Part shown: piece by piece, positions 13,770 to 54,500 of the stretch
How positions within the stretch are numbered: the stretch's first letter is position 1
Layout of the letters: each line of letters begins with the position of its first letter
Assembly: GCF_026991495.1 (NCBI RefSeq)
Contig: NZ_JALXBJ010000025.1
Location: 1-64,000 of the forward strand
From: Thermococcus sp.
GTDB lineage: Archaea > Methanobacteriota_B > Thermococci > Thermococcales > Thermococcaceae
Direction: 5' to 3'
DNA: 64,000 bases
Program-made: the position numbers and the translations under genes
Notes under the pieces: model-generated
Databases searched by the model: none
The model's input: only the letters and a program-made list of their open reading frames with translations
What the model was told of the DNA's origin: nothing

Positions 13770-14569
13770 ACGTCTACGAACTCAGGGGGGTTTCCTACAG
13801 GTACCCGACCGGGAGCTGGGCCCTGAAAGGGGTGGACATGAGGGTTGAGAGGGGTGAAACGCTCGCGATAGTCGGGCCCAACGGTGCCGGAAAGACGACT
13901 CTCCTCAAGATAATGGACGCCCTCGTAATGCCGACCGAGGGGGAGGTGTTCTTCGAAGGGGAGCCCGTAACCGAGGAGACGATGACCGACCGCGGGTTCC
14001 GGCGGAAGGTCGGCTTCCTCTTCCAGAGCCCGGACGTCATGCTCTTCAGCGCGACGGTCTTGGAGGACGTGGCCTTCGGGCCGGTTCACCTCTGGGGAAA
14101 AGAAAAGGGCCTTGAAAAGGCCAGAGAAGCCTTAAAGCTCCTCGGGATAGAGAACCTCGCCGACAGGCATCCCTACAGCCTCAGCGGAGGAGAGAAGAAG
14201 AAGGCCTCGATAGCGGCTGTGCTCTCGATGGAGCCGGAGGTTCTCCTTCTCGACGAGCCGACGCGGGATCTGGACCTGAGAAACAGGAACTTCGTCCTGG
14301 AAATGATAAAGCGCTGGAAGAGAGAGGGGAAGACCGTGGTGGTGGTCAGCCACGACCTAAGGCTGATTCGCCTCGCGGACAGGGTCTACGTCATCAATGG
14401 GGAGGTGCTCTTCGAGGGGACCCCGGGGGAGCTTTTCTCAAGGCCAGAGCTGGTAGAGAGAGCGAACCTCGACGTCCCGGAGATAGTCAGGCTCTTCCAC
14501 CGGCTGGGAATCGAAGAGGTGCCGATGAGCGTCGAGGAGGCGGCTGAGATACTGAAGAGGAGGTGCTAA
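13766..14569 (+). CDS. cbiO: ECF transporter ATP-binding protein (CbiO/EcfA)
   Basis: A 267-residue ABC ATPase. Walker A is GPNGAGKTT (about residues 35-43), the Q-loop is FLFQSPDVMLF with the energy-coupling-type acidic residue, the signature is SLSGGEKKK, Walker B is VLLLDEPT followed by DLDLRN, and the switch His is in VSHDL. The C-terminal extension is typical of CbiO. It overlaps the T-component gene by 4 nt and powers the M-N-T-A transporter. The 3' end overlaps the convergent ABC ATPase gene by 4 nt. Confidence 0.94.
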   Translation: MNVYELRGVSYRYPTGSWALKGVDMRVERGETLAIVGPNGAGKTTLLKIMDALVMPTEGEVFFEGEPVTEETMTDRGFRRKVGFLFQSPDVMLFSATVLEDVAFGPVHLWGKEKGLEKAREALKLLGIENLADRHPYSLSGGEKKKASIAAVLSMEPEVLLLDEPTRDLDLRNRNFVLEMIKRWKREGKTVVVVSHDLRLIRLADRVYVINGEVLFEGTPGELFSRPELVERANLDVPEIVRLFHRLGIEEVPMSVEEAAEILKRRC

Positions 14570-15252
14570 GACTCCAGCTTGAGCCTGAAGAGCCTCTCAA
14601 CCTCCCCCCTGACCTCATCCACCTCCCCGCTAAGGACGAGCTTTCCACTCGCGATGACGTAGACCCTATCGACCACCGGGAGGAGGGGCTCCCAGATGTG
14701 GCTGATTATCACGAAACTCCTCTTCCCGCGCTCCTCTTTGAGGAGTTTTACAAACCTCCCCATGCTCTCAAAGTCCAGGTTCGCCAGCGGCTCGTCTATC
14801 ATGACCAGCTCTGGATCTCCGACGAAAGCCTGGGCCACCGCGAGCTTCTTCAGCATCCCGGAGGAGTAGTTCTTGGTGATCTCATCGAGGAAGTCCAGCC
14901 CGAAGAGCTTTGCAACCCTCTCGACCTCTTCCATACCATAGCCCTTCGACCTCGCTATGAACTCAAGCCACTCCCTCCCGGAGATGAGGGGAGGGAAGGA
15001 GACCGGGTCGTAGGCCACCCCAATTCTCATCTTCACAGCGGCGTCCCTCCAGGGGTCCTTTCCCATGAGCCTTATCCTCCCGGAGGTCGGCCTGTAGACG
15101 CCGGTGGCGAGCTTGAAAAACGTGCTCTTCCCGCCGCCGTTCGGGCCGAGGATAAGGTTCGTGCCCTCTGGAATCTCAACCGTAACCCCGTCGAGGGCCT
15201 TTATGCTCCCAAAGCGCTTGATAAGGTTCTCTGCCTCTATCAACTCCACCAC
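14566..15252 (-). CDS. ABC-2 exporter ATPase (secreted-protein locus 1)
   Basis: A 228-residue ABC ATPase of the ABC-2 export (CcmA/NatA) type. Walker A is GPNGGGKST (about residues 36-44), the signature is NYSSGMLKK, Walker B is LVMIDEPLANLD, and the switch is IISHIWE. It is the last gene of an operon that reads secreted protein, anchored ectodomain protein, permease, two-TM protein, ATPase. It starts with a GTG at 15252, overlapping the preceding small membrane gene by 13 nt, so the two are coupled. The substrate is unknown; genomic context points to a peptide or protein. Confidence 0.92.
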   Translation of the reverse strand: MVELIEAENLIKRFGSIKALDGVTVEIPEGTNLILGPNGGGKSTFFKLATGVYRPTSGRIRLMGKDPWRDAAVKMRIGVAYDPVSFPPLISGREWLEFIARSKGYGMEEVERVAKLFGLDFLDEITKNYSSGMLKKLAVAQAFVGDPELVMIDEPLANLDFESMGRFVKLLKEERGKRSFVIISHIWEPLLPVVDRVYVIASGKLVLSGEVDEVRGEVERLFRLKLES

Positions 15253-15686
15253 CTCCAGAGGAGAAAGGCGAGGAGAACTGACAGCACTCCAACTGAAACC
15301 CAGAGGACGCCCTGGGTTCTTGAGGTTGGGTAGAGCTCCGAGATGTAACCCGAACAGAACATACTGCCGTTTGTGTAAAGTGAGTAGGTGCCTTCATGGG
15401 GGATCACAACAACCCTGCTAACGTGGGGTTCAACGGGGATATCCAAAAGATTTCTGCCCGAAAGCTGATCCTTCAGCAGAAGGCTTCCCCTACCGTTGCA
15501 GGAGATGTTGAGGAGAGCCCATCCCGGGGAATGGAAGGGGATGTAGCTGAGCCTTCCGCTTTCCAGCTGGATCTTTCCCGGCCCGATGTAGCCCCGCACA
15601 TGCTCGTTGGCCCTGTAGGCCGCCAAAAACGACATCAGCATCAGGATCATAATAACCAGGAGACCGATTAAAAAGCGGTGCCTCAT
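15240..15686 (-). CDS. Two-TM protein with exposed Cys-containing domain (locus 1)
   Basis: A 148-residue protein with an N-terminal membrane segment (about residues 5-23) and a C-terminal one (about 125-145). The intervening domain of about 100 residues is beta-rich and holds two cysteines (ISCNG and FCSGYIS) that could form an external disulfide. It lies between the permease and ATPase genes and overlaps both. A similar-sized, similar-topology protein sits at 53094-53456 beside the second exporter locus. No family is recognised; a receptor, immunity or accessory role is inference. Confidence 0.8.
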   Translation of the reverse strand: MRHRFLIGLLVIMILMLMSFLAAYRANEHVRGYIGPGKIQLESGRLSYIPFHSPGWALLNISCNGRGSLLLKDQLSGRNLLDIPVEPHVSRVVVIPHEGTYSLYTNGSMFCSGYISELYPTSRTQGVLWVSVGVLSVLLAFLLWRWWS

Positions 15687-16450
15687 ACAACATCCCCCCT
15701 GAGGAATACGACGAGGGAAAGCAGCAGGAGGGTGATTGGAAGGGCGAGCCCGGCGGCAGCGTTCGCAGGCGAGAAGGGAGTGCCCCCGTTGAGGACAGCA
15801 GTGAAGCCCTCAACGAAGGAGAAGGGGGGTAACATTAGGGATGAGAAGTAGGGAACCACCGTAACGAAAAATGCCGCTAAAAACGAGAGGAACATGTTCT
15901 TAAAGAGCACACCGAAGAGAACCGAAACCGACAGCACAAAGAACACGAAGTAGAAGGTGAGGACGAGCTCGTAGAGGAAGGTAGTACTCCCCAAAAGGGA
16001 CCAGAGCACGGGGGAGAGGTCGGCGTTCAGGAAAACCGCAACGGCGATGAGGGGGAATATAGATGCAAGAACGGCAAATACGAGGGTGGAGGCAACCTTT
16101 GAGAGGTATATCCCAAGCTTCGAGTAGGGGAGGGAATAGAGCGAGAGGGCATAGCCCCTGTCCCTGTCGTACCTGAAGGTCAGCACCGAGATCACAGACG
16201 TGAACAGGGACAGGAGGATCCAAAAACCCGGGACAAGACTCGGATACACAAAGAGCCAGTGGGCACTCATGCTCGACGTTGCAGTGGACGGGGAGAAGGT
16301 GGGGGGTTCGTTTCCGTGAATAAGCGCGAGGCCCGCCATGGAGTGAAGGTAGCCCGCGGCCAAGAGGTATGAGAGGACGGGAACCGTAATCACGGCAACT
16401 AAAACCTTCAGGGGATCGCCGACCTCCCAGGAAATTAAATTCCCTTTCAT
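15683..16450 (-). CDS. ABC-2 type permease (locus 1)
   Basis: A 255-residue integral membrane protein with about six membrane segments, consistent with an ABC-2 permease. It has a short cytosolic N-terminus, a conserved-looking RYDRDRGYALSLYSLPYSK coupling loop between segments 2 and 3, and a final TM ending VVFLRGDVV. It overlaps its upstream neighbour by 4 nt (ATGA type) and its downstream neighbour by 4 nt. It should pair with the ATPase at 14566 to export a substrate, probably linked to the secreted protein encoded at the head of the operon. Confidence 0.86.
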   Translation of the reverse strand: MKGNLISWEVGDPLKVLVAVITVPVLSYLLAAGYLHSMAGLALIHGNEPPTFSPSTATSSMSAHWLFVYPSLVPGFWILLSLFTSVISVLTFRYDRDRGYALSLYSLPYSKLGIYLSKVASTLVFAVLASIFPLIAVAVFLNADLSPVLWSLLGSTTFLYELVLTFYFVFFVLSVSVLFGVLFKNMFLSFLAAFFVTVVPYFSSLMLPPFSFVEGFTAVLNGGTPFSPANAAAGLALPITLLLLSLVVFLRGDVV

Positions 16451-17499
16451 GCCTTACCCCTCCTCCACAGCAGCAGGCCCGCTATTACGACGGCAGTTAA
16501 TCCCCCGACCCCAACCAGCCAGTACCTGGATGACGGCCTGGGCTCGTAGACGGGAGCGGGGGCTTCAGAAGAGGTTCCGGCCGTTTTTGGAACCTTTAGG
16601 GAATACAGCATGACCCCAACTGCGGGGTATTTGCTTATTGAGAAATGGGCGCCCTCCTTTGAGATCTCATTAAAGTACTTATTCGTGAGGCTATCCACGG
16701 CGATGAGCATCTTAACTCCGATGGCTTCCAAATCCGGTATAAACCCAAACATACCGGAGGTCACATCGTTGCCGGGATTGAAATTGAGGACGGTTCTACC
16801 GGTTGCGTTTCCCCCGAGCGTCATTACGCTCACAGGGGGGTACTTTATGAATAGGTTTGGGGGAGTAAAGTCGCGGTAGTAGGTTACGTGGGTTATGTTC
16901 ACCCTCCTCATTGTTTCGGGCAGGTATGGTTTTCCGTTTATGACTACGGGGAGCTCCTCCTTGTTTGAAATGTAGAGCCCGAAGAGGAGAGTATGGCCGT
17001 AGTAAGTACCGTTGAGCGAGTAAACCGAACCGTTCGTGAGCACCAATTTATACTCCCCTGAAACGGTGAGGTTTTTGTAGAGGTCGTCCTCAAGCCTCTT
17101 CCCCCTCGGCGAAAACGGGGTGGAGTTGATCAGCGGACCGGGCAGGGGCTTACATGATGCCGGGCGGACCACGTTGACGTAGGAAAACGGCCTGCGAAGT
17201 ACGGGATTTCCCAGGAAAAGGAGCGTTACGTTGACGTAGGCCGTGTTCTCCGTCACCCGCTGGACCCTGAACTTCACAAAGATCTGCTGGAAGCCAATGG
17301 AGTATGCGCATTTACCGTGTACATACTCCACACTTCCTCCCCATGCATACGTTTTAGCCGGGGTTGCATTGGCGTAGTATTCCAATGTGGTGCCGCTTTT
17401 AAACCAGTAGGGTACGGTAGCAGTCCCGACAGCTCCGGAGGCCAGAGGGAGCAGCAGGGTCAGCAGGGCGATTGCACTCAAAAAGAAAAGGGACTTCAT
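16447..17499 (-). CDS. Membrane-anchored ectodomain protein (locus 1)
   Basis: A 350-residue protein with an N-terminal signal peptide (about residues 1-22, ending LASGAVG), a long extracellular domain with many Asn-x-Ser/Thr sites, and a C-terminal membrane anchor (WLVGVGGLTAVVIAGLLLW) followed by RRGKA. There are three cysteines in the first third. No family is recognised. The start ATG has GGAGGTG 6 nt upstream. It lies 17 nt after the small secreted protein gene and overlaps the permease gene. The protein at 50698-51591 has the same place and build in locus 2. Confidence 0.84.
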   Translation of the reverse strand: MKSLFFLSAIALLTLLLPLASGAVGTATVPYWFKSGTTLEYYANATPAKTYAWGGSVEYVHGKCAYSIGFQQIFVKFRVQRVTENTAYVNVTLLFLGNPVLRRPFSYVNVVRPASCKPLPGPLINSTPFSPRGKRLEDDLYKNLTVSGEYKLVLTNGSVYSLNGTYYGHTLLFGLYISNKEELPVVINGKPYLPETMRRVNITHVTYYRDFTPPNLFIKYPPVSVMTLGGNATGRTVLNFNPGNDVTSGMFGFIPDLEAIGVKMLIAVDSLTNKYFNEISKEGAHFSISKYPAVGVMLYSLKVPKTAGTSSEAPAPVYEPRPSSRYWLVGVGGLTAVVIAGLLLWRRGKA

Positions 17500-17516: not shown

Positions 17517-17919
17517 TTAAATCGAATTGGGCGGAATGCCTACTGAAGCAATAACCCCGAAATAGGCGCCCATAACGTCTCCGTATGCAATGGTTTCGAC
17601 AGAGTACAGGGTATTATCAGGGCAGTAACACCACAGATCCCCAAGTCCATATGACCATCCGTAGTGCGTGTCGTCGTACCAGTAGGAAGGAGAGCAGACG
17701 TAGAAGTATGCTGTGGCACTTGCACCGATCCCTCCGAGCAGCGATATACCATTGGTCTCTATATCCTCCCCGTACCATACGCACTTGGAGATCTGCTTGT
17801 AGTGGACATCAGCTGGCTGAGGAGCTGATGCAACGCTTGCCGCTTTTACAATGCCACTCAACAGTCCAGTTGCCACCAGCATTCCCAATAGCCCCCAACA
17901 ACAACTTTCGGTGTTGCAT
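17517..17919 (-). CDS. Small secreted Cys/Tyr-rich protein, signal peptide frameshifted (locus 1)
   Basis: The open frame from the TTG at 17888 (or ATG at 17882) encodes about 120 residues beginning MLVATGLLSGIVKAASVASA. The mature part is rich in Tyr, Trp and Gly, with four cysteines (SKCVW, YVCSP, LWCYC). Upstream, the ATG at 17919 gives MQHRKLLLGAIG, the missing positive and hydrophobic start of the signal peptide, but in another frame. Reading GGG at 17884-17886 as GG would join them into one perfect signal peptide. A TATA-like ACTTTAAATTTATG lies at about 17961-17974. It heads the ABC-2 exporter operon. Function unknown; a bacteriocin-like product is a guess. Confidence 0.7.
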
Positions 17920-43926: not shown

Positions 43927-44157
43927 TCATTCTATCTCGACCGGGGAGATTGCAAGGACGTTGTCTCCCCTGATGACGATTTTACCGTACTTCTTAACGG
44001 CCTCGCCGTCCTGTATGAGATCCGCCTCGGCGAGGACGACGTTCAGGTGGATGTCGTAACCGATAAGCTTGCCCCTGAACTCGCCACCCCTCTTGAGGAG
44101 CACGAGGACGTCCTTATCAAGGGACTTGTGAATAACGTCGAGTGGTCTTTCCGCCAT
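43927..44157 (-). CDS. Sm-like (LSm/SmAP) RNA-binding protein
   Basis: A 76-residue archaeal Sm-like protein. Sm1 is in DKDVLVLLKRGGEFRGKLIGYDIHLNVVL and Sm2 in KIVIRGDNVLAISP. Such proteins form heptameric rings that bind U-rich RNA. GGTGTG precedes the ATG at 44157. It heads a two-gene operon with L37e. Confidence 0.97.
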   Translation of the reverse strand: MAERPLDVIHKSLDKDVLVLLKRGGEFRGKLIGYDIHLNVVLAEADLIQDGEAVKKYGKIVIRGDNVLAISPVEIE

Positions 44158-44312
44158 TTTTCACACCTCCAAACAATCAAAGCTCATAGCCTTAACTGGG
44201 GAAACGGTTTATAACTCTTTCCCCCCGCGGTGGGGGAGCTTTCCGCGCGGAACGTCTTCCGGATGCACCCCCAAAGCCAAGCTTTAATTTCAACCGGAAA
44301 ACTAATAACCTG

Positions 44313-44329
44313 TATCACCGAGAGTGATG
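44313..44329. promoter_or_regulatory. Glycolytic motif (TGM-like) at GH13 lipoprotein promoter
   Basis: TATCAC-N5-GTGATG matches the Thermococcales glycolytic motif with one mismatch. It lies downstream of a TATA-like GCTTTAATTT (44281-44290) and 11 nt before the start codon. This position predicts repression by TrmBL1/Tgr that is relieved by maltodextrins (inference from known TGM sites). Confidence 0.72.
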
Positions 44330-44340
44330 AAGGTGGTCCA

Positions 44341-46623
44341 ATGGGAAGGGAAGTCGGAGTCCTTGCAGTTCTGCTCGTTCTCCTGGCGGCGGTATCTTCA
44401 GGCTGCCTGAGCGCTTCTCCGGGCACATCTCCAGCCCCTCCGTCGGGTACCGGGTCAATAAGCAACTCATCGCCTGTCCTCAACTCCAGCACGTCCACTG
44501 CGGTCTCATCTCCTCCCCTCAGCCTGCCCGCCGGGAACTATACACCCCTCTACGTTTCGGCCAAATCCTGCCCCCCAGGGAGGGTCCCCGTGGAATTCAC
44601 CTACAGACCGGCCAACGGGAGCGTCAGCTCCGTAAGCGTGCGGGGCAGCTTCAACAAGTGGGGCAAACTGCCCATGAGGTACGAAAACGGCACCTGGGAG
44701 GTCGCCGTCTGCCTCCGGCCTGGGAGGTATCAGTACAAGTACTTCATCAACGGCCAGTGGGTCAGGGACATGTCTAAGGACAACGGGGGAAAGCCAGTTG
44801 ACCCCGATGCCGATGACTACGTTCCAGACGGCTACGGGGGGAAAAACGCCGTGAGGATCATCAGGGGGGAGGCAGCCTTTTACTTTGAGTTCGACCCGCG
44901 GGATCCGACGTACCTGAGCGTCGCCGACAACGGGACTGTGGTGAGGGTTGAGGTCAAGCCGGGAACCCTCTCATCGGCCGTTCTCGTGACGGACAGGGGA
45001 AACTACACGATGAAACCCCAGGTCTGGTGGGGCTCGGGTGCGGTCTGGCGCGCCGAAGTCCCGGCGGTTGAACCGATGAGGTACTATCTCCTGCTAAACT
45101 CCACCGACGGAAAGCGGCTCGCCGTCCTGAACTCCAGCAAAAGCCCGTTCTTCACCTTTGACGGCATCGACAGGTTCCCCCAGATCCAGTGGGTAAGCAA
45201 CGGGATAACCTACCAGATATTCCCAGAGAGGTTCAACGACGGCAACGAGAGCAACGACCCCCTCGCCCTTCAGACCGACGAGCTCTGGTTCAACGAGATG
45301 ACCGGTGGGAGGCCCATCCTCTCGAACTGGAGCGGCCCGATAACGCCCCTCAACTGCTGCCACCAGTACTACGGAGGAGACATAACCGGCATAACGGAGA
45401 AGCTCGACTACCTGCAGAGCTTGGGCGTCACGATAATCTACCTCAACCCGATCTTCATCTCGGGCAGTGCCCACGGCTACGACACCTACGACTACTACCG
45501 CGTGAATCCCCACCTCGGCACCGAAAGGGAGCTCAGGGAGTTCCTCGACGAGGCGCGCAGGCGCGGGATCAGGGTGATCTTTGACTTCGTGCCCGACCAC
45601 ACAGGAGTAGGCCACTGGGCCTTCCTGGACGTTGCAGCGAGGGGCAAGGGGAGTCCCTACTGGAACTGGTACCTCATCAAAAAATGGCCCTTCAAGCTCG
45701 GCGATGGAAATGCCTACGCCGGCTGGTGGGGTATTGGCAGTTTGCCGAAGCTCAACACCGCCAACCCGGAGGTTAGGGAGTACCTCATCGGTGCAGCGCT
45801 ACACTGGATTGAGTTCGGCTTCGACGGGATAAGGGTTGACGTTCCCAACGACGTCCTCGACTCCGGGACTTTCTTCAGAGAGCTGAGGGAACGGGTCAAG
45901 GCCGAGAAGCCGGATGCCTACCTCGTTGGGGAGATTTGGACTCTCTCGCCGGAGTGGGTTAAGGGAAACCGCTTCGACTCGCTCATGAACTACGCCCTTG
46001 GCAGGGATATCCTCCTGAACTACGCGAGGGGCTACCTGAGCGGGAACGCGACGCTTAAGATGCTCGGGAGGTATTACGCGAGCTACGGGGAGAACGTCGT
46101 CGCGATGGGCTTCAACCTCGTTGACTCCCACGATACATCGAGGGTTCTCACCGACCTCGGGGGCGGTTCCCTCGGGGATAAACCGAGCAATGAGTCCATA
46201 AAGAGGCTCAAGCTCCTCTCAACACTCCTCTACGCCCTTCCTGGAACCCCCGTGACCTTCCAGGGCGACGAGAGGGGGCTGCTTGGAGATAAAAACCACT
46301 ACGACGAGCAGCGCTACCCGATACAGTGGGACGAAGTGAACGGGGACGTGCTGAGCCACTACAGAGCCCTGGCGAAGCTCAGGAAGACCGTTCCCGCCCT
46401 GAGGAGCAGTGCTATAAGGTTCTACACAGCGAAGGACGGGGCTCTGGCATTCTTCAGGGGGCACGACGATGAGGTTCTCGTTGTAGCGAACGCCTGGAGG
46501 AAGCCAGCCAAGCTCCAGCTCCCGCCCGGAGAGTGGAGAGTCATCTGGCCAGAGAGCGGAGGTACTGTCACCGGGACTATTGAAGTGCCCCCTATTGGCA
46601 TCTTGATACTCGAGAGGGGGTGA
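44341..46623 (+). CDS. Secreted GH13 lipoprotein, pullulan hydrolase/cyclomaltodextrinase-like
   Basis: A 760-residue exported glycoside hydrolase. Signal peptide with lipobox-like VSSGC (Cys22) and a Ser/Thr/Pro linker; then a carbohydrate/AMPK-type glycogen-binding module (SVRGSFNKWGKLPM...QYKYFINGQW) and a GH13 barrel. Conserved regions: DFVPDH (about 415), GIRVDVPND (nucleophile Asp about 500), GEIW (acid/base Glu about 532) and DSHDTSR (about 597). Length and layout resemble the type III pullulan hydrolases of Thermococcus. GGTGG precedes the ATG at 44341. It should degrade external pullulan/starch. Confidence 0.92.
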   Translation: MGREVGVLAVLLVLLAAVSSGCLSASPGTSPAPPSGTGSISNSSPVLNSSTSTAVSSPPLSLPAGNYTPLYVSAKSCPPGRVPVEFTYRPANGSVSSVSVRGSFNKWGKLPMRYENGTWEVAVCLRPGRYQYKYFINGQWVRDMSKDNGGKPVDPDADDYVPDGYGGKNAVRIIRGEAAFYFEFDPRDPTYLSVADNGTVVRVEVKPGTLSSAVLVTDRGNYTMKPQVWWGSGAVWRAEVPAVEPMRYYLLLNSTDGKRLAVLNSSKSPFFTFDGIDRFPQIQWVSNGITYQIFPERFNDGNESNDPLALQTDELWFNEMTGGRPILSNWSGPITPLNCCHQYYGGDITGITEKLDYLQSLGVTIIYLNPIFISGSAHGYDTYDYYRVNPHLGTERELREFLDEARRRGIRVIFDFVPDHTGVGHWAFLDVAARGKGSPYWNWYLIKKWPFKLGDGNAYAGWWGIGSLPKLNTANPEVREYLIGAALHWIEFGFDGIRVDVPNDVLDSGTFFRELRERVKAEKPDAYLVGEIWTLSPEWVKGNRFDSLMNYALGRDILLNYARGYLSGNATLKMLGRYYASYGENVVAMGFNLVDSHDTSRVLTDLGGGSLGDKPSNESIKRLKLLSTLLYALPGTPVTFQGDERGLLGDKNHYDEQRYPIQWDEVNGDVLSHYRALAKLRKTVPALRSSAIRFYTAKDGALAFFRGHDDEVLVVANAWRKPAKLQLPPGEWRVIWPESGGTVTGTIEVPPIGILILERG

Positions 46624-46738
46624 TGAGCAGGTGCTCCCTTCCCTCCCCCTCGCTACGGGGAGTTCCTCTGACACGGTGACGGGCCGTTCCCCAAAAGGTT
46701 TTTATGAAGTCCCTCGCTCCAGTTTCAGGTGGTGAGCG

Positions 46739-48448
46739 ATGGGAGAAGCTGATAAGTACGAGATTCTTCAGGATTTGATGAGGAGGAGGGGCTTTGCCTG
46801 GGGGAGCTTTGAAATCTACGGCGGTTCACGCGGATTCTATGACTACGGCCCGCTCGGCGCGACGATAAAGCGCAAAATCGAGAGGAAGATAAGGGAGGCC
46901 TTCCAGAGGGAGGGCTTCTTTGAGGTCGAAACGCCTGACATAACGCCGGAGAAGGTGTTCATAGCCAGCGGTCACGTCGAGAAGTTCGTTGATCCTCTCG
47001 TCGAGTGCAGGAAGTGCGGTGCGAGGTTTAGAGCGGACCACCTCGTTGAAGAGGCCTTAGGAATAGACGCCGAGGGGCTCTCCGCCGAGGAACTTACAAG
47101 GCTCATAAGGGAGAACGGCATAAAGTGTCCCGAGTGCGGCGGAGAGCTTTCGGACGTCTGGTACTTCAACCTCATGTTCGAGACGAGAATCGGCCCCTAC
47201 GGCGACCAGAAGGGCTATCTAAGGCCTGAAACTGCCCAGGGCATGTTCGTTAACTTCAAACGCCTAAACGCCTTCGCGAGGAACAAACTGCCTTTCGGCG
47301 TCTTCCAGATTGGAAAGGCCTACCGCAACGAGATTTCTCCGAGGCAGGGAATGCTCCGCTTGAGGGAGTTCACGCAGGCGGAAGCGGAGATATTCTTCAA
47401 CCCGAAGGAGACAGCTCATCCGCACTTCAAGGAGGTTAAAGACGAAAAGCTTAGGCTCTACCCGATAGAGCACCAGCTCAAGAACCTCGGGGAGATAGAG
47501 CTAACTGCTGGAGAGGCCGTCGAGAAGGGCTACCTGATGAACGCCTTCTTTGCCTACTATCTCGTTATGGTCAAGAGAACCCTCCTCGACATAGGTATTC
47601 CTGAGGACAAGATACGCTTCAGGCAGCAGCTGCCGGAGGAGAGGGCCCACTACTCGCGCGACACCTGGGACGCCGAAATCCACAGTGAGCGCTTCGGCTG
47701 GGTGGAGTGCGTTGGGATAGCCAACCGCGGTGACTACGACCTGAGCAGACACATGCGCGAGAGCGGAGCTGACTTAACAGTTCTCATCCACTACGAGGAA
47801 CCAAAAACCGTGAAGAGACTGGAAGTTTCCCTCAACATGAAGCGCGTCGGTCCAAAGCTCAGGAAAGATGCCAAGAGGATAAACGAAATGATAAAGGGCT
47901 GGAACGAGGAGAAGAAGCGCGAGTTAGCGGAGCTCCTTGAGAAGGAAGGAAAAGTCACCATCGAGGGCTACGAGCTTGAGAAGGACGACTTCATAATCAA
48001 GGAAGTTGAGGAGAAGATAACGGGAGAGAAGATAGTACCCCACGTTTTGGAGCCGAGTTTCGGCATAGACAGGCCCTTCTACCTGCTCCTCGAAAACAGC
48101 CTCGTCATCGAGGAGGACAGGACTTACCTCAAACTCAAGAAGGACATGGCGCCGATAGAGGTTGCTGTGCTTCCTCTAGTTGCCAAGGAGCCTCTCAAGG
48201 GCATAGCCTACGATGTCTTCAGAACCCTCCAGAAGGAGGGCTTTATAGTGGTATACGACGAGAAGGACACGATAGGGAGGCGTTACCTGAGATACGACGA
48301 GATTGGAACTCCATACTGCGTCACCATCGACAACCAGACGCCGGAAGACGGGGCCGTTACGATCCGCGACCGCGACACGAGGGAGCAGGTGAGGGTTAGC
48401 ATTGAAGAGCTGTCCGGCAGGCTGAGGGAGCTGATTTTCGGGAGTTAG
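46739..48448 (+). CDS. glyS: Glycyl-tRNA synthetase
   Basis: A 569-residue class II GlyRS of the archaeal/eukaryotic alpha2 type. N-terminal RRGFAWGSFEIYGGSRGFYDYGPLG, a zinc-ribbon insertion (CRKCG...CPECG), motif 2 AYRNEISPRQGMLRLREFTQAE, motif 3 EPSFGIDRPFYLLL, and a C-terminal anticodon-binding domain. The ATG at 46739 follows GGTGGTGAGCG; a TATA (GGTTTTTATG) lies at about 46699-46708. Its 3' end overlaps the convergent hepT gene by 4 nt. Confidence 0.97.
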   Translation: MGEADKYEILQDLMRRRGFAWGSFEIYGGSRGFYDYGPLGATIKRKIERKIREAFQREGFFEVETPDITPEKVFIASGHVEKFVDPLVECRKCGARFRADHLVEEALGIDAEGLSAEELTRLIRENGIKCPECGGELSDVWYFNLMFETRIGPYGDQKGYLRPETAQGMFVNFKRLNAFARNKLPFGVFQIGKAYRNEISPRQGMLRLREFTQAEAEIFFNPKETAHPHFKEVKDEKLRLYPIEHQLKNLGEIELTAGEAVEKGYLMNAFFAYYLVMVKRTLLDIGIPEDKIRFRQQLPEERAHYSRDTWDAEIHSERFGWVECVGIANRGDYDLSRHMRESGADLTVLIHYEEPKTVKRLEVSLNMKRVGPKLRKDAKRINEMIKGWNEEKKRELAELLEKEGKVTIEGYELEKDDFIIKEVEEKITGEKIVPHVLEPSFGIDRPFYLLLENSLVIEEDRTYLKLKKDMAPIEVAVLPLVAKEPLKGIAYDVFRTLQKEGFIVVYDEKDTIGRRYLRYDEIGTPYCVTIDNQTPEDGAVTIRDRDTREQVRVSIEELSGRLRELIFGS

Positions 48449-48789
48449 CACTCCCTCTCGATGATTTTCTCAATTTCCTCCTTCAATTCTCCAAGCTGAG
48501 AACTCACGATGACCCAGACCACCGAAAGGTCAACACCGAAGTAGTGATGAATGACAACGTTTCTGAGGCCAACGATTCTCCTCCAAGGAACAGAGGGATA
48601 TCTCTCCCTCACCTCGTCTGGAATATTTCTCGCAGCCTCTCCAATAATCTCAAGGTTCCTCAGTACAGCATCAACCGTTTTCCTGTCGTTAACGAAGGTT
48701 TCAAAGGTGTAGCCGCTGGTATACTCTTCTATCCGACTTATGGCCTCTAAGATATCATTCATGAAAAGGCAGGGGTCCCGTTTAGACAT
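48445..48789 (-). CDS. hepT: HepT-type toxin (DUF86, HEPN RNase)
   Basis: A 114-residue HEPN/HepT protein. The catalytic RX4-6H motif is intact as RNVVIHHY, and the N-terminus has the typical DILEAISRIEEYTSGYTFETF. HepT toxins cleave RNA and are neutralised by AMPylation of the nearby Tyr by the cognate MntA nucleotidyltransferase, encoded 8 nt overlapping upstream. The tyrosine of the HHY is where modification would occur. The pair could act in stability or phage defence. Confidence 0.92.
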   Translation of the reverse strand: MSKRDPCLFMNDILEAISRIEEYTSGYTFETFVNDRKTVDAVLRNLEIIGEAARNIPDEVRERYPSVPWRRIVGLRNVVIHHYFGVDLSVVWVIVSSQLGELKEEIEKIIEREC

Positions 48790-49084
48790 AGACCAAATCC
48801 TCCCTAATATGTTCCCACAGCCCTTTTCTGCTCATGGCGGCGTTTTTTGTAATTACGTCCACAGGCAGGCCGAGAAGTTCCTCCAAGTAGTCCCTGAGAT
48901 CGACTATCTCCCACCCGATAGGCCTTTCAAATTCAACGAGTATGTCAACGTCGCTCAGCTCGGTCTCCTCACCCCTTGCATAGGAGCCAAAGATGGCTAT
49001 TGAACTAACCCCGAAGCGTTCCCTGAGCTCTTCCTTGTGCTTCCGGAGAATGGCTTCGATTTCCTCAAGCTTCTTTGTCATCAT
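48782..49084 (-). CDS. mntA: MntA-type nucleotidyltransferase antitoxin
   Basis: A 100-residue minimal nucleotidyltransferase. The active site is FGSYARGEETELSDVDILVEF (GSx10DxD). A C-terminal LPVDVITKNA strand-helix completes the fold. It partners the HepT toxin, overlapping it by 8 nt. The start may be the ATG at 49084 or 49081. A single TATA-like region at 49099-49108 appears to serve this gene and the divergent DUF402 gene. Confidence 0.93.
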   Translation of the reverse strand: MMTKKLEEIEAILRKHKEELRERFGVSSIAIFGSYARGEETELSDVDILVEFERPIGWEIVDLRDYLEELLGLPVDVITKNAAMSRKGLWEHIREDLVYV

Positions 49085-49131
49085 TTCTGGTAATTTGTGA
49101 ATGTATAAAAGGCTTAGTGTAAACGTTCTCT

Positions 49132-49719
49132 ATGTTGTCCAAAATCCACCTCATCTACAAGAGGATCCCAAACCGCGTTCTTAAGAGGGACGACGAGGTA
49201 ATAGCTGATTTGGGCAATATCATCGTCGCCAAGTCAACCTTCTCCGGCATGCTCGCGCCTTTGAGGGTAAATGGCGTTGAGGTCATCAAGAACGGCTACA
49301 ACATGCTCTACTTCGCATTCATCGGGGAGAACTACGACATCCTCAAGGTCTACGATGAAGAGGGAAACTTCAAGGGGCTCTACATTGACGTTTTGGCCTA
49401 CACAAAGCGCGAGGGAAACACCTTAGAGATGCTCGACCTCTTCTTAGACATCTTCGTCTTCCCGGATGAAGGGGCGTTTCTCCTCGACGAGGACGAGCTG
49501 GAGATGGCCCTGAACCACGGGCTGATAGGTAGGGAGGCCTTTGAGTTCGCCTACTCCGTTGCCAGGAGGATACTCGAAAAGCTTAAACGCGGTGACTTTC
49601 CCCCTAAAATCGTCTGGGAATACGACTGGAGGGATTACCGTGAAGTTCCTGAAGGAGACGAAAGAGGGAGCTCTCCTCCTGATCTACGTCCAGCCAAAGG
49701 CGAAGAAGAACGCGATTGA
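49132..49719 (+). CDS. DUF402 protein (FAU-1 C-terminal-like)
   Basis: A 195-residue protein of the DUF402 type, related to the C-terminal RNA-binding/ribonuclease part of FAU-1. Core: YFAFIGENYDILKVYDEEGNFKGLYIDVLAYTKREGN...MLDLFLDIFVFPD with ALNHGLIGREAFEFA. Compared with full FAU-1 it lacks the N-terminal RNase E/G-like S1 part. A TATA (ATGTATAAAAGG) lies about 25-30 nt before the ATG, so the mRNA is leaderless. Its 3' end overlaps the DUF167 gene by 80 nt. Confidence 0.82.
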   Translation: MLSKIHLIYKRIPNRVLKRDDEVIADLGNIIVAKSTFSGMLAPLRVNGVEVIKNGYNMLYFAFIGENYDILKVYDEEGNFKGLYIDVLAYTKREGNTLEMLDLFLDIFVFPDEGAFLLDEDELEMALNHGLIGREAFEFAYSVARRILEKLKRGDFPPKIVWEYDWRDYREVPEGDERGSSPPDLRPAKGEEERD

Positions 49720-49924
49720 AGGCATCGATGAGTGGCGCGGAAGACTGAAGGTCAAAATCAAAGCTCCGCCCGTTGAGGGGAAGGCCAACAAGGAAGTGGT
49801 GAAGTTCTTCTCGAAGCTCCTCGGTGCTGAGGTCACTATAGTCCGAGGGGAGACGGGCAGGGAGAAGGATCTGCTCGTGAGGGGGCTTGGGGCGGAAGAT
49901 GTGAGGAAGAGGCTCGGCCTCTAA
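49640..49924 (+). CDS. DUF167/YggU family protein
   Basis: A 94-residue protein starting MKFLKETKEGALLLIYVQPKAKKN, with LKVKIKAPPVEGKANKEVVKFFSKLLG and VTIVRGETGREKDLLV, the recognised YggU/DUF167 pattern. The start is a GTG at 49640 with GGAGGGA 5 nt upstream; it lies inside the end of the DUF402 gene in another frame, so the two are co-transcribed. Function of the family is unknown. Confidence 0.9.
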   Translation: MKFLKETKEGALLLIYVQPKAKKNAIEGIDEWRGRLKVKIKAPPVEGKANKEVVKFFSKLLGAEVTIVRGETGREKDLLVRGLGAEDVRKRLGL

Positions 49925-49962
49925 CCCCGGACTGCCTCTGAACCAGGTGTCTGAAAGGGGGA

Positions 49963-50023
49963 GTTGTAATGAATTACAACCCGTATAAACCAAATCCATC
50001 TTAATGTTTGTAATGCTTACAAC
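49963..50023. promoter_or_regulatory. Two related palindromes upstream of secreted-protein locus 2
   Basis: GTTGTAATGAATTACAAC (49963-49980) is a perfect 8-bp inverted repeat, and GTTTGTAATGCTTACAAC (50006-50023) is its near copy, 43 bp apart (about four helical turns). Both lie upstream of the TATA-like AGCTTATAAGC (50037-50047). They look like tandem sites for one dimeric regulator of the whole locus; the protein is unknown. Confidence 0.6.
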
Positions 50024-50092
50024 CAAAGATGCGTAAAGCTTATAAGCTCTGCTGTGCATAAGACAATGCCCATCACTCTACGGGGGGGGCAG

Positions 50093-50644
50093 ATGAAGAG
50101 GAGAAACTACCTGGCTGCGTTGTTCCTTGGGTTTGTTGTTTTGGGGCTTGTAAGCCCGGCAGTGTCGGCAGGGATACCCGGTAGCGTGACATTAAAGATA
50201 CAGAAAAAAGTCTGGTGGGCTGAGGCACACGTGTACACCACAATTTTTTACAATGTGGAAAGTAACCCCTACGGCTTTGTCGAGTTCGCGCCCCTCGGGG
50301 CACCGTACAACTACATCCACTTTGGAAGCCATTCGGGAACAGCCAGTAACGCGTACTGGAAGTCAGTAACAGCCAGTACCTCAGCGCTAAAGCATTACGC
50401 TTCAGGATGGTGGCACGTTGAAGCACTGGGGTCCTCAAGAGATGGGACTATGCAGATGTGGCTTTACATCGAGTACCAAGACAGCCTTAACCAGGGAGAC
50501 AAAGAGCTTAATGTTGATTATATCGGAGGCACGCCCTATCTTATGGTCAGGTACACCGTTGACAGTTCGGGAGGTAGTGAACTGGCAAATAAGGCCTATG
50601 ACATTGCAATTGGTGCAATAAAGGACTATCTGGTCTCAGCTTGA
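50093..50644 (+). CDS. Secreted aromatic-rich protein (locus 2)
   Basis: A 183-residue protein with a clear signal peptide (MKRRNYLAALFLGFVVLGLV, ending SPAVSAG) and a mature chain of about 157 residues, rich in Trp, Tyr, Ser and Gly (KKVWWAEAHVY, YASGWWHVEALG) and lacking cysteine. No family is recognised. The ATG at 50093 follows CGGGGGGGGCAG, a G-run ribosome-binding site also seen at the locus 1 secreted gene. It is the first gene of locus 2. Confidence 0.82.
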   Translation: MKRRNYLAALFLGFVVLGLVSPAVSAGIPGSVTLKIQKKVWWAEAHVYTTIFYNVESNPYGFVEFAPLGAPYNYIHFGSHSGTASNAYWKSVTASTSALKHYASGWWHVEALGSSRDGTMQMWLYIEYQDSLNQGDKELNVDYIGGTPYLMVRYTVDSSGGSELANKAYDIAIGAIKDYLVSA

Positions 50645-50697
50645 AAGCTCTCTTTATATTTTTAAGGCCCAACTCGATTGACAACAAGGTGATGGGG

Positions 50698-51591
50698 ATG
50701 AGAAGCAAAAGGAAGACCTACACGTTGGCCGGCTTCGTCTTCCTCCTCTTGGCATTCGCCCTCGTCATGTACCCGATAGCGAGCTACTACCTGGGCATTT
50801 ACCTCGGCTCAAATCACAGCATCCGCAAACCAGGCTCATCCTTCACCTACGTGGGGGCCCTCGTTTCCAGGACGTACGTCTACCACTTCGAAGTCCTGGA
50901 GAACGGGAGCTACAACTTCACCGCCATACTCTACCGGGGCGGCCCCGGGTACGGCTACAGCCAGAGCAAGAGCCCGCCAAGGGACTGGAGGTTCCCCTTC
51001 TTCACCAACATGACGAGGGATCAGGTAAAGGAAATCTGCGAGGTCAACATGATACTCCCCAGGAACGACTCCTTGGTTAGGCTCTTCTTCCCAAAAGATG
51101 CCGTTTACCTGCTGAACAGGTCGAGGCCGATTGTAAAGCTTCCTCCCCTTGAAGACCACGGCTACATAAACTGGTACTTCCTCCCCAAGTTCTTAGGTTT
51201 CCCAAGACTCTACGCACCGGAAGGCCTGGAGAGGTTTAACAAAACCCTCGCGGTAAAGCTCAACTCCAGCGAGTACTTTCCGGTGGTTAGATATCTCAAA
51301 GCCAGCGACGGGTACTATATAATTGCCTACAATTCCCATATACCCCAAACCTTTGAGCCGCTCCAGCTCGGGAGGGTCTTCGACCACTGTCTGAACACAT
51401 GGCTTTTGGTCAAGATGTACAACGGGGACTTTCCCCCGATTCTCCTCGTTAACTCCAACGTCCAGCCCCTTTCCCAGGATTGGAAGCAGGCGATCAAGTA
51501 CAGCGCCATACAATACACAGCTCCCGTTGACTTCGTGCTCATCCTCACAGGTGTAATCCTCCTGATCTTAGCCGGGAGGGCGAGGGGATGA
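50698..51591 (+). CDS. Membrane-anchored ectodomain protein (locus 2)
   Basis: About 297 residues (start at the ATG at 50698, or 299 from 50692, GGTGAT just upstream). An N-terminal membrane segment (GFVFLLLAFALVMYPIASYY) and a C-terminal one (FVLILTGVILLILAG) bracket an extracellular domain with several Asn-x-Ser/Thr sites. It resembles in build and gene order the 16447-17499 protein of locus 1, including an early strand pair (YHFEVLENGSYNFTAILYRG here). It overlaps the ATPase gene by 4 nt. Function unknown. Confidence 0.82.
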   Translation: MRSKRKTYTLAGFVFLLLAFALVMYPIASYYLGIYLGSNHSIRKPGSSFTYVGALVSRTYVYHFEVLENGSYNFTAILYRGGPGYGYSQSKSPPRDWRFPFFTNMTRDQVKEICEVNMILPRNDSLVRLFFPKDAVYLLNRSRPIVKLPPLEDHGYINWYFLPKFLGFPRLYAPEGLERFNKTLAVKLNSSEYFPVVRYLKASDGYYIIAYNSHIPQTFEPLQLGRVFDHCLNTWLLVKMYNGDFPPILLVNSNVQPLSQDWKQAIKYSAIQYTAPVDFVLILTGVILLILAGRARG

Positions 51592-52409
51592 GGGTTGAAG
51601 CGGCGAACTTAGGGGTGAACTACGGCAGCGTGTGGGGTGTAAGGGGCGTGACCTTCAAAGTTAAAGCCCAGAGGCTGGCCGTAGTCGGCCACAACGGGAG
51701 CGGAAAGACGACCCTCCTCTCAGTCCTCTCCGGGCTCAGGAAGCCGACCGAAGGAAAGGCAGAGGTAAACGGAGTTGAGCCTTACAGGCGCGGCGATAAG
51801 TGGGTTGCAATAAGGTACTCCTTTGAGAAGCCCCAGTTCAGCGTACCCGTTAAGGTCAGAGACCTCGTGGAGACCCTCCGGGCCAATCCAAACTGCCCGA
51901 AGGTTGATGATCTCGTCGAGGCCCTGGGGATAAGCGGTTTCCTTGACCACAGGCTGGACGGTCTCTCCAGCGGTCAGGCCCAGCTCTGCAACCTCCTGAT
52001 GGCGCTGTCCTGCGATGCCGAACTGGTCATCCTCGACGAGCCAACGGCGCACCTCGACTCCTACAGGGCGGGTCTGGTTGACGACCTCCTCTCCAAAAGG
52101 AAGGGGCTGATAATGGCCACCCACGACCCGGAGGAGGGGGAAGCGGTCGCGGACCACTTCATCATAATGAAGGAGGGAAGGCTCGTGTGGCAGGGCGGCA
52201 GAAGGGAGCTCTTTGCCAACGGCGTCTACGAGGTCACCCTCGTTGACGGAACCTCCGGGGTTCCCCCTGGCATTGAAGTCGTTCACAGCTTCGGGGCCAT
52301 AGTCATAGCGAGGGCGAAAGAGGAGACCCTGAGCGAGCTCTTCAGGAGGGGTTTGATAGCGGGCTTCAAAAGGGCGGGGTTGCGCTATGCTTATGCGGAA
52401 AGCCGTTAA
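51588..52409 (+). CDS. ABC-2 exporter ATPase (locus 2)
   Basis: A 273-residue ABC ATPase. Walker A GHNGSGKTT (about residues 34-42), signature GLSSGQAQL, Walker B LVILDEPTAHLD and switch ATHDPEE. Its C-terminal 70 residues form an extra domain (EVTLVDGTSGVPPGIEV...), longer than in the locus 1 ATPase. The start overlaps the anchored-protein gene (ATGA) and the end overlaps the permease gene by 23 nt. Confidence 0.92.
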   Translation: MRVEAANLGVNYGSVWGVRGVTFKVKAQRLAVVGHNGSGKTTLLSVLSGLRKPTEGKAEVNGVEPYRRGDKWVAIRYSFEKPQFSVPVKVRDLVETLRANPNCPKVDDLVEALGISGFLDHRLDGLSSGQAQLCNLLMALSCDAELVILDEPTAHLDSYRAGLVDDLLSKRKGLIMATHDPEEGEAVADHFIIMKEGRLVWQGGRRELFANGVYEVTLVDGTSGVPPGIEVVHSFGAIVIARAKEETLSELFRRGLIAGFKRAGLRYAYAESR

Positions 52410-53070
52410 GTGGTACCTCCGTGGCCTGTTTCCCCCGGCGGCCACCACGGTGCTCCTCCTGCTCATGCTCTTAGCGGCCGACTCCTCCCTCAACGCGATA
52501 AAGACCGAGGGGCCGAGCCAGTTCATAGCGCTCATGGAGTACATATTCTTCCCCGTCTACGGGGTGCTCATAGGCTCCCACGTTTTCAGGGACTCAAGGA
52601 CGACGATCTTCGAGCTGGGCATCTTCAACGGCCCCAAGACGGTTTTCTTAGCCCGCACGGTCATCGTTGCAATCGGCCTCCTCCCGGGCATGGGAAGCGT
52701 GGCCCTGCTGGCCTGGTGGAAGGGGCATCCCGAGTTCCTCGTGCCGATCCTTCTGAAGGTTCCCCTCTACACGGCCTTCATAGCGGTTCTCGCCGCCTAT
52801 CTCGACTCACTCGCGGGGACGCTGACTCTATTCATCATAGCGTCAGCGGTTCCAATGTCCTTCAGCGTCCTCCTCGGAAGGAGCGGCTCCGGGTCCCCGG
52901 ACGCGCTGATGACGTCCCTTGCCTACGTGTTCTCACCGGTGCTCTGCGTCAGGTACAGGGGGCTTCTTCCGATTGACGGCGCCCACGGCACGGCCCTCGA
53001 TCTTGCCGTCTCAGCCCTGCTCCTCCTCTGGGGCTACTGGGCGTTCTCAAGGAGGGAGTTCTCCCCCTGA
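52387..53070 (+). CDS. ABC-2 type permease (locus 2)
   Basis: A 227-residue integral membrane protein with about six membrane segments: FPPAATTVLLLLMLLA near the N-terminus, VFFPVYGVLIGSHVF-like second, then VIVAIGLLPGMGSVALLAW, and the last LAVSALLLLWGYWAF. The RDSRTTIFELGIFNGPKTVFLAR loop parallels the coupling loop of the locus 1 permease. It starts within the ATPase gene (ATG 52387 or 52393) and completes the exporter. Confidence 0.84.
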   Translation: MLMRKAVKWYLRGLFPPAATTVLLLLMLLAADSSLNAIKTEGPSQFIALMEYIFFPVYGVLIGSHVFRDSRTTIFELGIFNGPKTVFLARTVIVAIGLLPGMGSVALLAWWKGHPEFLVPILLKVPLYTAFIAVLAAYLDSLAGTLTLFIIASAVPMSFSVLLGRSGSGSPDALMTSLAYVFSPVLCVRYRGLLPIDGAHGTALDLAVSALLLLWGYWAFSRREFSP

Positions 53071-53093
53071 CGGCCTCTCCGTTTTCGCTGTCC

Positions 53094-53456
53094 TCACCTG
53101 TACTTCAGGAAAGCCATGTAGAAAAACGCCCCTCCGGCCAGGGAGAGCCCGCCTGCAAAGGCGAGCAGGTAGCCGGGCCCCTTGTAGCGGATCTCAACGG
53201 TGTAGCAGCCCGTGGAGTTTGAGTAGGTGTACTCCAGGCCCACCTTTCTTAGGATGACCCTGTCCCTCCACGCAACGAAGACGTCCCCTGTGGAGGCCGA
53301 GACCCGGAGGAAGCCGTCGGCAACGTTTACGCGGTAGTCTCCCAGCCTGCCCGATTGCCCCTCGCAGAAAGTTCCCCTCACCGACTGCCCCGGAAGTATG
53401 AGGGCCGCGACCGCGATTAGGATCCCCGCTATTAGAAGGGCCTCTTCAATGTCCAT
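53094..53456 (-). CDS. Two-TM protein with exposed Cys-containing domain (locus 2)
   Basis: A 120-residue protein with an N-terminal membrane segment (ALLIAGILIAVAALILP), a beta-rich middle of about 65 residues with two cysteines (GTFCEGQ and TGCYTVEI), and a C-terminal membrane segment (LLAFAGGLSLAGGAFFYMAF). It matches the size and topology of the 15240-15686 protein in locus 1, but here is transcribed towards the permease gene from its own promoter (TATA-like GAGTTAAAAGC at 53485-53495). Function unknown. Confidence 0.75.
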   Translation of the reverse strand: MDIEEALLIAGILIAVAALILPGQSVRGTFCEGQSGRLGDYRVNVADGFLRVSASTGDVFVAWRDRVILRKVGLEYTYSNSTGCYTVEIRYKGPGYLLAFAGGLSLAGGAFFYMAFLKYR

Positions 53457-53495
53457 AGACCTCAGGGTAAAAGAGGGAAAAGGGCTTTTAACTCT

Positions 53496-54500
53496 TCACT
53501 TCAAAATGCCAAGCGAGCGGTTCGTCTTCCTCATGCTCTCCCGCTTGTCGGCGAGCTCGAACATCGCCCTTATTGCATCGACGTTCTCAGGCACTACATC
53601 GCTCTCCTGGTGCACCGCCTGGATGTAGAACAGCCTGTTTCCTTTCACGCTTATGCTCTCCTTCCAGACCGCTATTTCATACAGGTTGTTCCACTCGCGG
53701 TGCAGGTCGCGGGCGAACTCTATTAGCTGAGCGGTGCTCTCAAAGCCCCTCTCCTTCTCGAAAAGGAGAACCCTCGTCGTGTTCTCGAAGATGTCTATGA
53801 CGTCCTTCTCTGTGAGGGGTTTCTTGAGCTCTATCATGACGCTGTGGACGTGCATGAGCGTTGTTGGAACGACGAAGGCCATCGTCTCGATGTTTATCGG
53901 GATGACAGTCTGCACATCGGGCCCGTGATGGGAGGGGACTTCAACGGTCGGCTTTATCGCGTTTATCGGCCCGCGCTTGGAGTCGTTCGGGTCAGCGGCA
54001 CGGCGTATCATCACAGCGTAAACGTAGTCTATATACTCCTGCAGGGCCGAGAGAGTTCTGCTTAAGCCAGTCGTGTTGCAGGAGACAACGCGAACGTAGT
54101 CCTTTCCAAGGGCCTTCTCGTAGTTGGCCTGAGCGACGAAAGATACTTCGGCAACGCTCGCCTTCTCGCCGCCCTCGAAAACCGCCTTAACCCCTGCCTT
54201 CTCGTAGAGCGTTTTGTTCTTCGCCCCCATTCCTCCAGGGGTTGCATCAACGATGACATCGGCCTTCTCAAGGAGGTCGTTCAAAGTGCCCGCAACATCA
54301 AAGCCGGCCTTTTCAAAGCGCTGGATGAAGCCATCGCTTGCAGCGTAAACCGGGATTCCCATCTCCTTTGCCAGATAGGCCTCGAAGTCCGGCTTCGTCT
54401 TCGTGACACCAATGAGCTCCATGTCGTCCTGCCTTGAGACGGCATAGGCGACGCGCTTCCCTATCGTCCCGTAGCCGTTCACACCCACGCGCACCTTCAT
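53496..54500 (-). CDS. gap: Archaeal glyceraldehyde-3-phosphate dehydrogenase
   Basis: A 334-residue archaeal-type phosphorylating GAPDH. The N-terminal nucleotide-binding motif is [14 protein letters not shown] and the catalytic Cys is in [10 protein letters not shown] (about residue 140); the substrate His is in the PSHHGPD or MHVHSV segment. In Thermococcales, where GAPOR carries glycolytic flux, this enzyme serves gluconeogenesis. A glycolytic-motif-like palindrome lies upstream of the TATA (about 54526-54538), the activating position. The ATG at 54500 has GGTGGGAGC upstream. Confidence 0.96.

Follow-up and report, generated by a model that had tools for sequence, protein, structure and literature searches.

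A secreted protein, a membrane-anchored ectodomain protein and an ABC transporter in Thermococcus: a candidate antagonism unit with self-protection

Few antimicrobial proteins are known from archaea, the halocins and the sulfolobicins. The subject here is a predicted four-gene unit, S-E-A-P, comprising genes for a secreted protein (S2), an ectodomain protein (E2) and the ATPase (A2) and permease (P2) of an ATP-binding cassette (ABC) transporter, which lies in a stretch of 64,000 nucleotides from Thermococcus sp. (assembly GCF_026991495.1, contig NZ_JALXBJ010000025.1, positions 1 to 64,000), called the window below. An earlier reading of the window (the original prediction) had seen there two exporter loci of five parts each, with S-E-A-P and a neighbouring gene for a protein of two transmembrane (TM) segments forming locus 2, a diverged copy of locus 1. 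Among described systems, the operons of arCOG00194 ATPases combine the ATPase with a permease of six TM segments (6-TM) and a diverged putative binding protein, and a role in drug resistance has been suggested for them, along with bacteriocin-like or quorum roles for other secreted families of Thermococcus (Makarova et al., 2014, PMC4158269). The streptococcin B genes scbABC, of the lactococcin 972 type, encode a Sec-secreted bacteriocin, presumed immunity and ABC functions, and natural strains without the bacteriocin are described (PMC11796350). LanI and LanFEG, a surface binding protein and an ABC transporter, expel lantibiotics from the membrane (PMC8538875).

Likened by description, E-A-P resembles the arCOG00194 operon type noted in 2014, sharing with it an ATPase, a 6-TM permease and a diverged binding protein within one operon, as well as the occurrence in duplicated, variable cassettes. 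It differs in that the accessible text of PMC4158269 has no secreted partner or loss of one, no poly-G leader and no split into families, and proposes multidrug resistance. A literature search, thin on subscription journals, found no paper that describes the S partner, how it turns over or the poly-G leader, and found arCOG00194 in one paper only. The likeness to the lactococcin 972-type operons lies in the order of genes, a Sec-secreted protein first and membrane and ABC genes after it, and in the natural strains without the bacteriocin, comparable to the loci that lack S. However, S has no match to the Lactococcin_972 models and is about twice as long, the known target, lipid II, is absent from archaea, and streptococcin non-producers are reported to be inhibited, whereas here E-A-P stays under selection. 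E and A/P may likewise be compared with the surface binding protein and transporter of LanI/LanFEG, but S-E-A-P has neither modification enzymes nor a peptide precursor, both ends of E are anchored and E is not a lipoprotein, and the ATPase match is generic. The VARTIG immunoglobulin (Ig)-domain modules of Thermococcales, the same archaeal order, are also hypervariable secreted or membrane conflict candidates; they are, however, large Ig proteins, and the words "ABC" and "permease" are absent from the main text of the paper (PMC8416519).

We propose, with a probability of roughly 45%, that S-E-A-P is an antagonism unit with self-protection, composed of a secreted S, a receptor E and an ABC transporter; toxicity, binding and transport, for all four proteins, we infer throughout. 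S2 would be synthesised with a signal peptide of the Sec type, set free at the cell surface, and would most likely act on related archaea; E2, anchored in the membrane by both of its ends, would bind S at the producer's own surface, and the A2/P2 transporter would, driven by ATP, rid the membrane of S or of the damage that it causes, as LanI and LanFEG do with lantibiotics. Loss of S would leave a resistant non-producer, which would explain the retention of E-A-P and the occasional doubling of E. An antagonist with self-protection would account for the loss of S, the maintenance and multiplication of E, the joint divergence of S and E, and the conservation of the transporter engine.

The loss of S was scored in loci of the locus 1 kind (type 1). 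ATPases like that of locus 1 (A1) are encoded (E ≤ 1e-50) in 60 of the 94 genomes of the family, in all six genera, and 73 distinct type-1 loci were annotated, 13 from initial searches and 60 as regions around the better A1 matches, with some 57 weaker matches left out of the search for S and one locus (L212) left out for its overlap with another (L112). The tallies use greedy calls of open reading frames (ORFs), and E lengths may include false upstream starts. Of the 70 loci having E1, 68 also have T1 and 66 have P1, and a small secreted protein is usually encoded directly before E1. Of the 67 loci that could be scored, 38 have an intact S and 8 a broken one; in another 8 only the leader is left before E1, and in 13 no S was found. 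The profiles were built from the same loci that they served to score, a call of "intact" required a stop-to-stop segment with E < 1e-35, and the status "broken" was assigned manually to S1 of the window and S of L259 on inspection. The modes of loss are a stop, a frameshift, or a deletion that leaves the S leader before E, and within the S1d clade, loci with the leader alone branch among loci that bear S, indicative of several separate losses.

Type-2 loci, to which locus 2 belongs, were scorable in 12 of 13 cases, with S intact in seven, interrupted by a stop in one (G056) and absent from four. One example is presented by the nearest relative, the metagenome-assembled genome (MAG) S013_22 (L142), whose match to the window runs as far as position 50165, where the S2 signal peptide ends, and which continues with another E gene (E', 47% to E2), followed by E2 (98%), A2 and P2; the junction between E' and E2 coincides with the end of a contig, with 151 bases common to L142 and L141, and rests on the assembly. 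All four type-2 loci without S have two E genes and all eight with S have one (the E of G055 being itself split). The tree of E places three origins of this doubling, in G046, in the ancestor of G021 and G033, and in G051, where the second E came from outside and not through local duplication. Mutual exclusion of S and a second E was rejected as a general rule, as it holds in type 2 only.

Loci without S give ratios of nonsynonymous to synonymous substitution rates (dN/dS) of 0.04-0.33 for E, P, T and A (with one pair, L109/L111, not computable for E or A), indicating purifying selection and therefore usefulness of E-A-P without S. For S2, E2, A2 and P2 the ratios are 0.05-0.16 where dS is computable, with some dS values saturated, and those for S2 alone are 0.08-0.16. 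It is this repeated loss of S, with E and the transporter under purifying selection, that favours an antagonist with self-protection over the exporter originally envisaged. An exporter or maturation machine, in which E-A-P would export, fold or release S, is consistent with the fixed order S-E-A-P and with gene overlaps suggesting one transcript, but S carries a Sec-type signal peptide of its own, and E-A-P is conserved under purifying selection where S is gone and its leader intact, making such a function quite unlikely. The S-less loci would also be accounted for by a general resistance pump, with E-A-P expelling environmental antimicrobials or drugs, as guessed for the arCOG00194 operons (PMC4158269, section 9), and S acting as an accessory scavenger or decoy; we think this unlikely, since it leaves unexplained that nearly all type-1 clades have a secreted partner of their own in the same position.

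S and E are the fastest-diverging parts and the ATPase is the slowest. Identities are 51% for S, 45% for E, 73% for P, 76% for T and 81% for A in S1b loci, 55, 56, 65, 60 and 74% in S1d loci, 50, 40, 40, 45 and 60% in S1c loci, and 57, 46, 51, 49 and 77% in S1a loci. In type 2, the identities of S and E are rank-correlated at 0.96 over 15 genome pairs. The S position of type 1 is occupied by several families (S1a/a2, b, c, d and e), mostly without detectable similarity; in profile comparisons a and a2 are clearly related (94%), while d-e (54%) and a-d (47%) are weak. Mapped on the ATPase tree, the families need five changes, the minimum possible, each being tied to one ATPase clade, so that replacements of one family by another have been few and deep. 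The notion of S as a cassette freely exchanged on a common engine was rejected, the families being bound to ATPase clades. The idea that the cargo varies while the machinery persists is upheld insofar as there are several S families, with ATPases 60-81% identical within families, but not in the sense of free exchange. E1 itself occurs in tandem arrays of up to four copies.

A number of results weigh against an antagonist with self-protection. Several E genes are present in 12 of the 38 type-1 loci with intact S, where a swap of S for a second E fails, and in type 3 only one of three S-less loci (G042) has two E genes. All other pairs of type-2 parts also correlate, at 0.74-0.88, so shared descent explains most of the correlation between S and E. 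S has no sequence or fold match to any toxin, its fold model, with a predicted local distance difference test score (pLDDT) of 32, being too unreliable for comparison with the beta-sandwich of lactococcin 972-type bacteriocins. The match of A1 to the lantibiotic-protection ATPase model, TIGR03740, at 1.8e-26, speaks for self-protection, but the ABC match is generic: A1 scores 93.2 bits, far below the cut-off of 309.75, and the model is not among the best 25 of the 197 matches of A2. Sequence searches of Pfam, NCBIfam and the PDB yielded no family for S or E, with no match of S2 at E ≤ 1 in Pfam and NCBIfam, nor of 10 S2/S3 members at E ≤ 5 in Pfam. The E2 model (pLDDT 69.5, predicted template modelling score 0.67, 8 sequences) has no confident Foldseek match, the best being at E 0.077, and its residues 40-256 align with LolA, RseB/MucB, LprF, YmcC-like lipoproteins and lipovitellin at Z 3-6. 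A fold with a hydrophobic pocket, of the LolA/RseB kind, is hinted at, with a Z below what is trustworthy; a Z under 8 may reflect a common arrangement. The same alignment would fit envelope or lipid trafficking, with E as a carrier like LolA or LppX and S as a protein of the envelope; this we regard as improbable, the patchy spread of E2 (13 of 94 genomes, one genus) being unlike a housekeeping role.

Table 1. Features of loci 1 and 2 and of the region upstream of S2 (window coordinates).
Feature	Position	Strand	Remarks
Palindrome TTGTAATGAATTACAA	49964..49979	.	operator-like; motif TTGTAAN{2,5}TTACAA
Second palindrome TTGTAATGCTTACAA	50008..50022	.	44 bp beyond the first, in the direction of S2
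TATA-like box for S2	50040..50046	+	by eye; relatives have a comparable A+T box in this position
Leader TGCCC ... GGGGGGGGCA	50067..50091	+	directly before ATG; G-run overlaps ribosome-binding position; possible hairpin
S2, secreted protein	50093..50644	+	ATG start; 183 amino acids; signal peptide, then about 157 mature; no Cys
E2, ectodomain protein	50698..51591	+	297 amino acids; hydrophobic segments at N and C ends
A2, ABC ATPase	51588..52409	+	PF00005, 3.9e-23; overlaps E2 and P2
P2, permease	52387..53070	+	227 amino acids; about six hydrophobic segments (6-TM); no Pfam match
T2, two-TM protein	53094..53456	-	120 amino acids; neighbour at the insertion site, outside the unit
A1, ABC ATPase (locus 1)	14566..15252	-	
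T1 (locus 1)	15240..15686	-	true unit member; in 68/70 type-1 loci having E1
P1 (locus 1)	15683..16450	-	PF12730, 30.3 bits, cut-off 27
E1 (locus 1)	16447..17499	-	
S1, secreted protein (locus 1)	17517..17919	-	N-terminal part in another frame than the remainder, as judged from the G051 copy

The features of both loci are collected in Table 1. The original prediction placed all five ORFs correctly, and rightly described the protein encoded at 50093 as rich in Trp and Tyr and free of Cys: the two aromatic residues make up 12.7% of mature S2 against a mean of 5.0% (standard deviation 1.8) for the 51 window ORFs of at least 150 amino acids, none of which equals S2. Its N-terminus, rich in Lys and Arg, then hydrophobic and closing on an Ala-X-Ala-like end, is that of a Sec-type signal, a call that rests on inspection and hydropathy. 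The prediction was equally right about the N- and C-terminal anchoring of E2, given its hydrophobic ends, and about the ATPase (PF00005) and the permease (its hydrophobic segments). The E2, A2 and P2 ORFs overlap by a few to 23 bases, so that a single transcript is likely. The predicted functional unit of locus 2 is the four genes S-E-A-P, at 50093-53070, and this order is retained in the neighbourhoods of relatives.

Homologues of E2 are present in 13 of the 94 genomes of the family, all within one genus, those of P2 in 14, and those of S2 in 9 by single-sequence search, a profile search of 115 genomes of the phylum likewise giving 9. The named relatives of the source genome are Thermococcus MAGs, and a search of genome contigs for the unit gave six MAG loci only. 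The unit is found at other sites as well (L040, L041, L044, L047 and L048), and it therefore moves or is re-sited. Carriage on known plasmids, phages or viral contigs was rejected, as searches with E2 (plasmids), S2 (phages) and the S profile (IMG/VR) found no match. Searches of the anti-phage defence systems of PADLOC gave no match of S2, E2, P2 or T2 at E ≤ 0.1, and only generic ATPase matches for A2. Compared with L141/L142, the window at 44152-54482 is a mosaic, with identities of 94-98% over E-A-P and 82-91% over much of 48346-50142, which suggests exchange between strains.

The palindrome motif TTGTAAN{2,5}TTACAA occurs at two places in the entire 1.99-Mb genome, both upstream of S2, the reversed control giving none; among relatives, two copies are found in L142, one in L039 and a degenerate one in L038. 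Such a private pair suggests dedicated control, and in this it agrees with the main rival explanation, in which S would be a secreted signal for quorum or kin recognition, received by E and transduced or cleared by the ABC transporter, with S-less strains eavesdropping. A signal and its receptor would leave nearly the same traces as an antagonist system, the same pattern of loss and the same co-divergence of S and E, and toxin or quorum sensing roles have been proposed for other Thermococcus secreted families (PMC4158269). Yet the unit includes no regulator or kinase gene, S, at about 157 amino acids, is large for a signal, and no regulon is visible, the palindrome being confined to the two copies upstream of S2; on balance, we judge a signalling role rather unlikely. 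Of the two analogies offered originally, toxin-immunity fits the repeated loss of S with the rest retained, and signalling stays as the rival just described.

A G-tract precedes the S start codon in many of the S families. Of 70 runs of at least seven G in 1,045,821 bases, 26 are at the 52 S starts, where such tracts are thus enriched, and a further nine, counted by eye, occupy S-less leader positions of E. The tract varies between relatives from 7 to 13 in length, differences that may allow phase variation, with homopolymer sequencing error also possible. The upstream C-run could pair with the G-run to give a leader hairpin. Folding energies compared with shuffles were not convincing in seven leaders (z +0.7 to -1.9, that of L039 being cut short of the C-run), and that of the S2 leader was not significant (z -0.85). 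In some S1b leaders (e.g., L223 and L226), long stems of the form TGCCCG...CGGGCA precede GGAGGG and the start codon and may represent a conserved RNA element.

As to the relation between loci, the combination of a secreted gene with genes for membrane and ABC proteins does recur, as had been proposed, being found in locus 1 (order S-E-P-T-A), in locus 2 and in a third locus of the same genome (G000:C85, L051 4440-7308; S3-E3-A3-P3). The secreted proteins S1 and S2 also proved, as predicted, to be without detectable sequence similarity (hhalign probability 14%). Descent of locus 2 as a diverged copy of locus 1 was not supported: hhalign probabilities are 2.3 and 3.4% for E1/E2 (from shallow alignments) and 1.5% for P1/P2, P1 belonging to PF12730 and P2 matching no Pfam family. 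In an ATPase tree taking in 26 other ABC proteins of the genome (24 from fetched contigs and two from the window, out of all 49 matches), A2 is sister to A3 of the third locus (support 100/99), with A1 joining the two weakly (85/73), and E3 aligns with E2. Judged by sequence, the plan shared by loci 1 and 2 is real as architecture, with homology established for the ATPase alone, and the closest relative of locus 2 in this genome is the G000:C85 locus, not locus 1.

Some peculiarities of type-1 loci may be added. The frame break of S1 lies in the signal peptide, by comparison with the intact G051 copy, and may be real decay or an assembly error. Four loci (L112, L115, L216 and L239) have a longer ORF labelled T1 (333-400 amino acids) and no separate P1, possibly a permease-T1 fusion. 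The A1-like matches in G014, G034, G045, G070 and G071, related ATPases from several species, each include one in-frame TGA, which may reflect alignment overhang or shared decay.

The two-TM gene T2 is part of the site and not of the unit. Its ORF at 53094 on the minus strand and its two Cys, invariant in nine aligned rows, are as originally described; its place in a five-part plan is contradicted by a distribution independent of the other four genes. Homologues are encoded in 23 of the 94 genomes and four of the six genera, including genomes without any E2-type locus. At the empty site (L122-L124), T2 adjoins the glyceraldehyde-3-phosphate dehydrogenase gene (GAPDH), and in G072 (placed by homologue-search coordinates), G078 and G056, T2 is by GAPDH with no unit between T2 and the DUF167/DUF402 side. 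In G048, G058 and G055, S-E-A-P occupies the same site, the interval between the glycyl-tRNA synthetase gene (glyRS) and GAPDH, and T2 is absent. T2 as a fifth component was rejected, given its presence at empty sites and its absence from these three loci. Beside the insertion site, at 48445-49084 on the minus strand, lie two small genes conserved in several relatives, which by their motifs are a putative HEPN/MNT toxin-antitoxin pair.

Extended to the whole order, the loci might represent Thermococcales-wide "archaeocins" with ABC-powered self-immunity, in which unrelated secreted families would be locked to receptor-transporter clades, a shared poly-G leader of variable tract length may switch production, and producers would continually become resistant non-producers through precise loss of the toxin gene; this wider proposal is tentative, and we hold it to be somewhat doubtful. 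If S is an antagonist, most Thermococcaceae (60 of 94 genomes having an A1-type ATPase) would carry a candidate archaeocin locus or an immunity remnant, and archaeal chemical warfare, with its dynamics of producers and non-producers, would be testable in a group with genetic tools. If true, this would provide a function for a long-noted "dark-matter" type of ABC operon, and for a set of heat-stable secreted proteins without an assigned fold.

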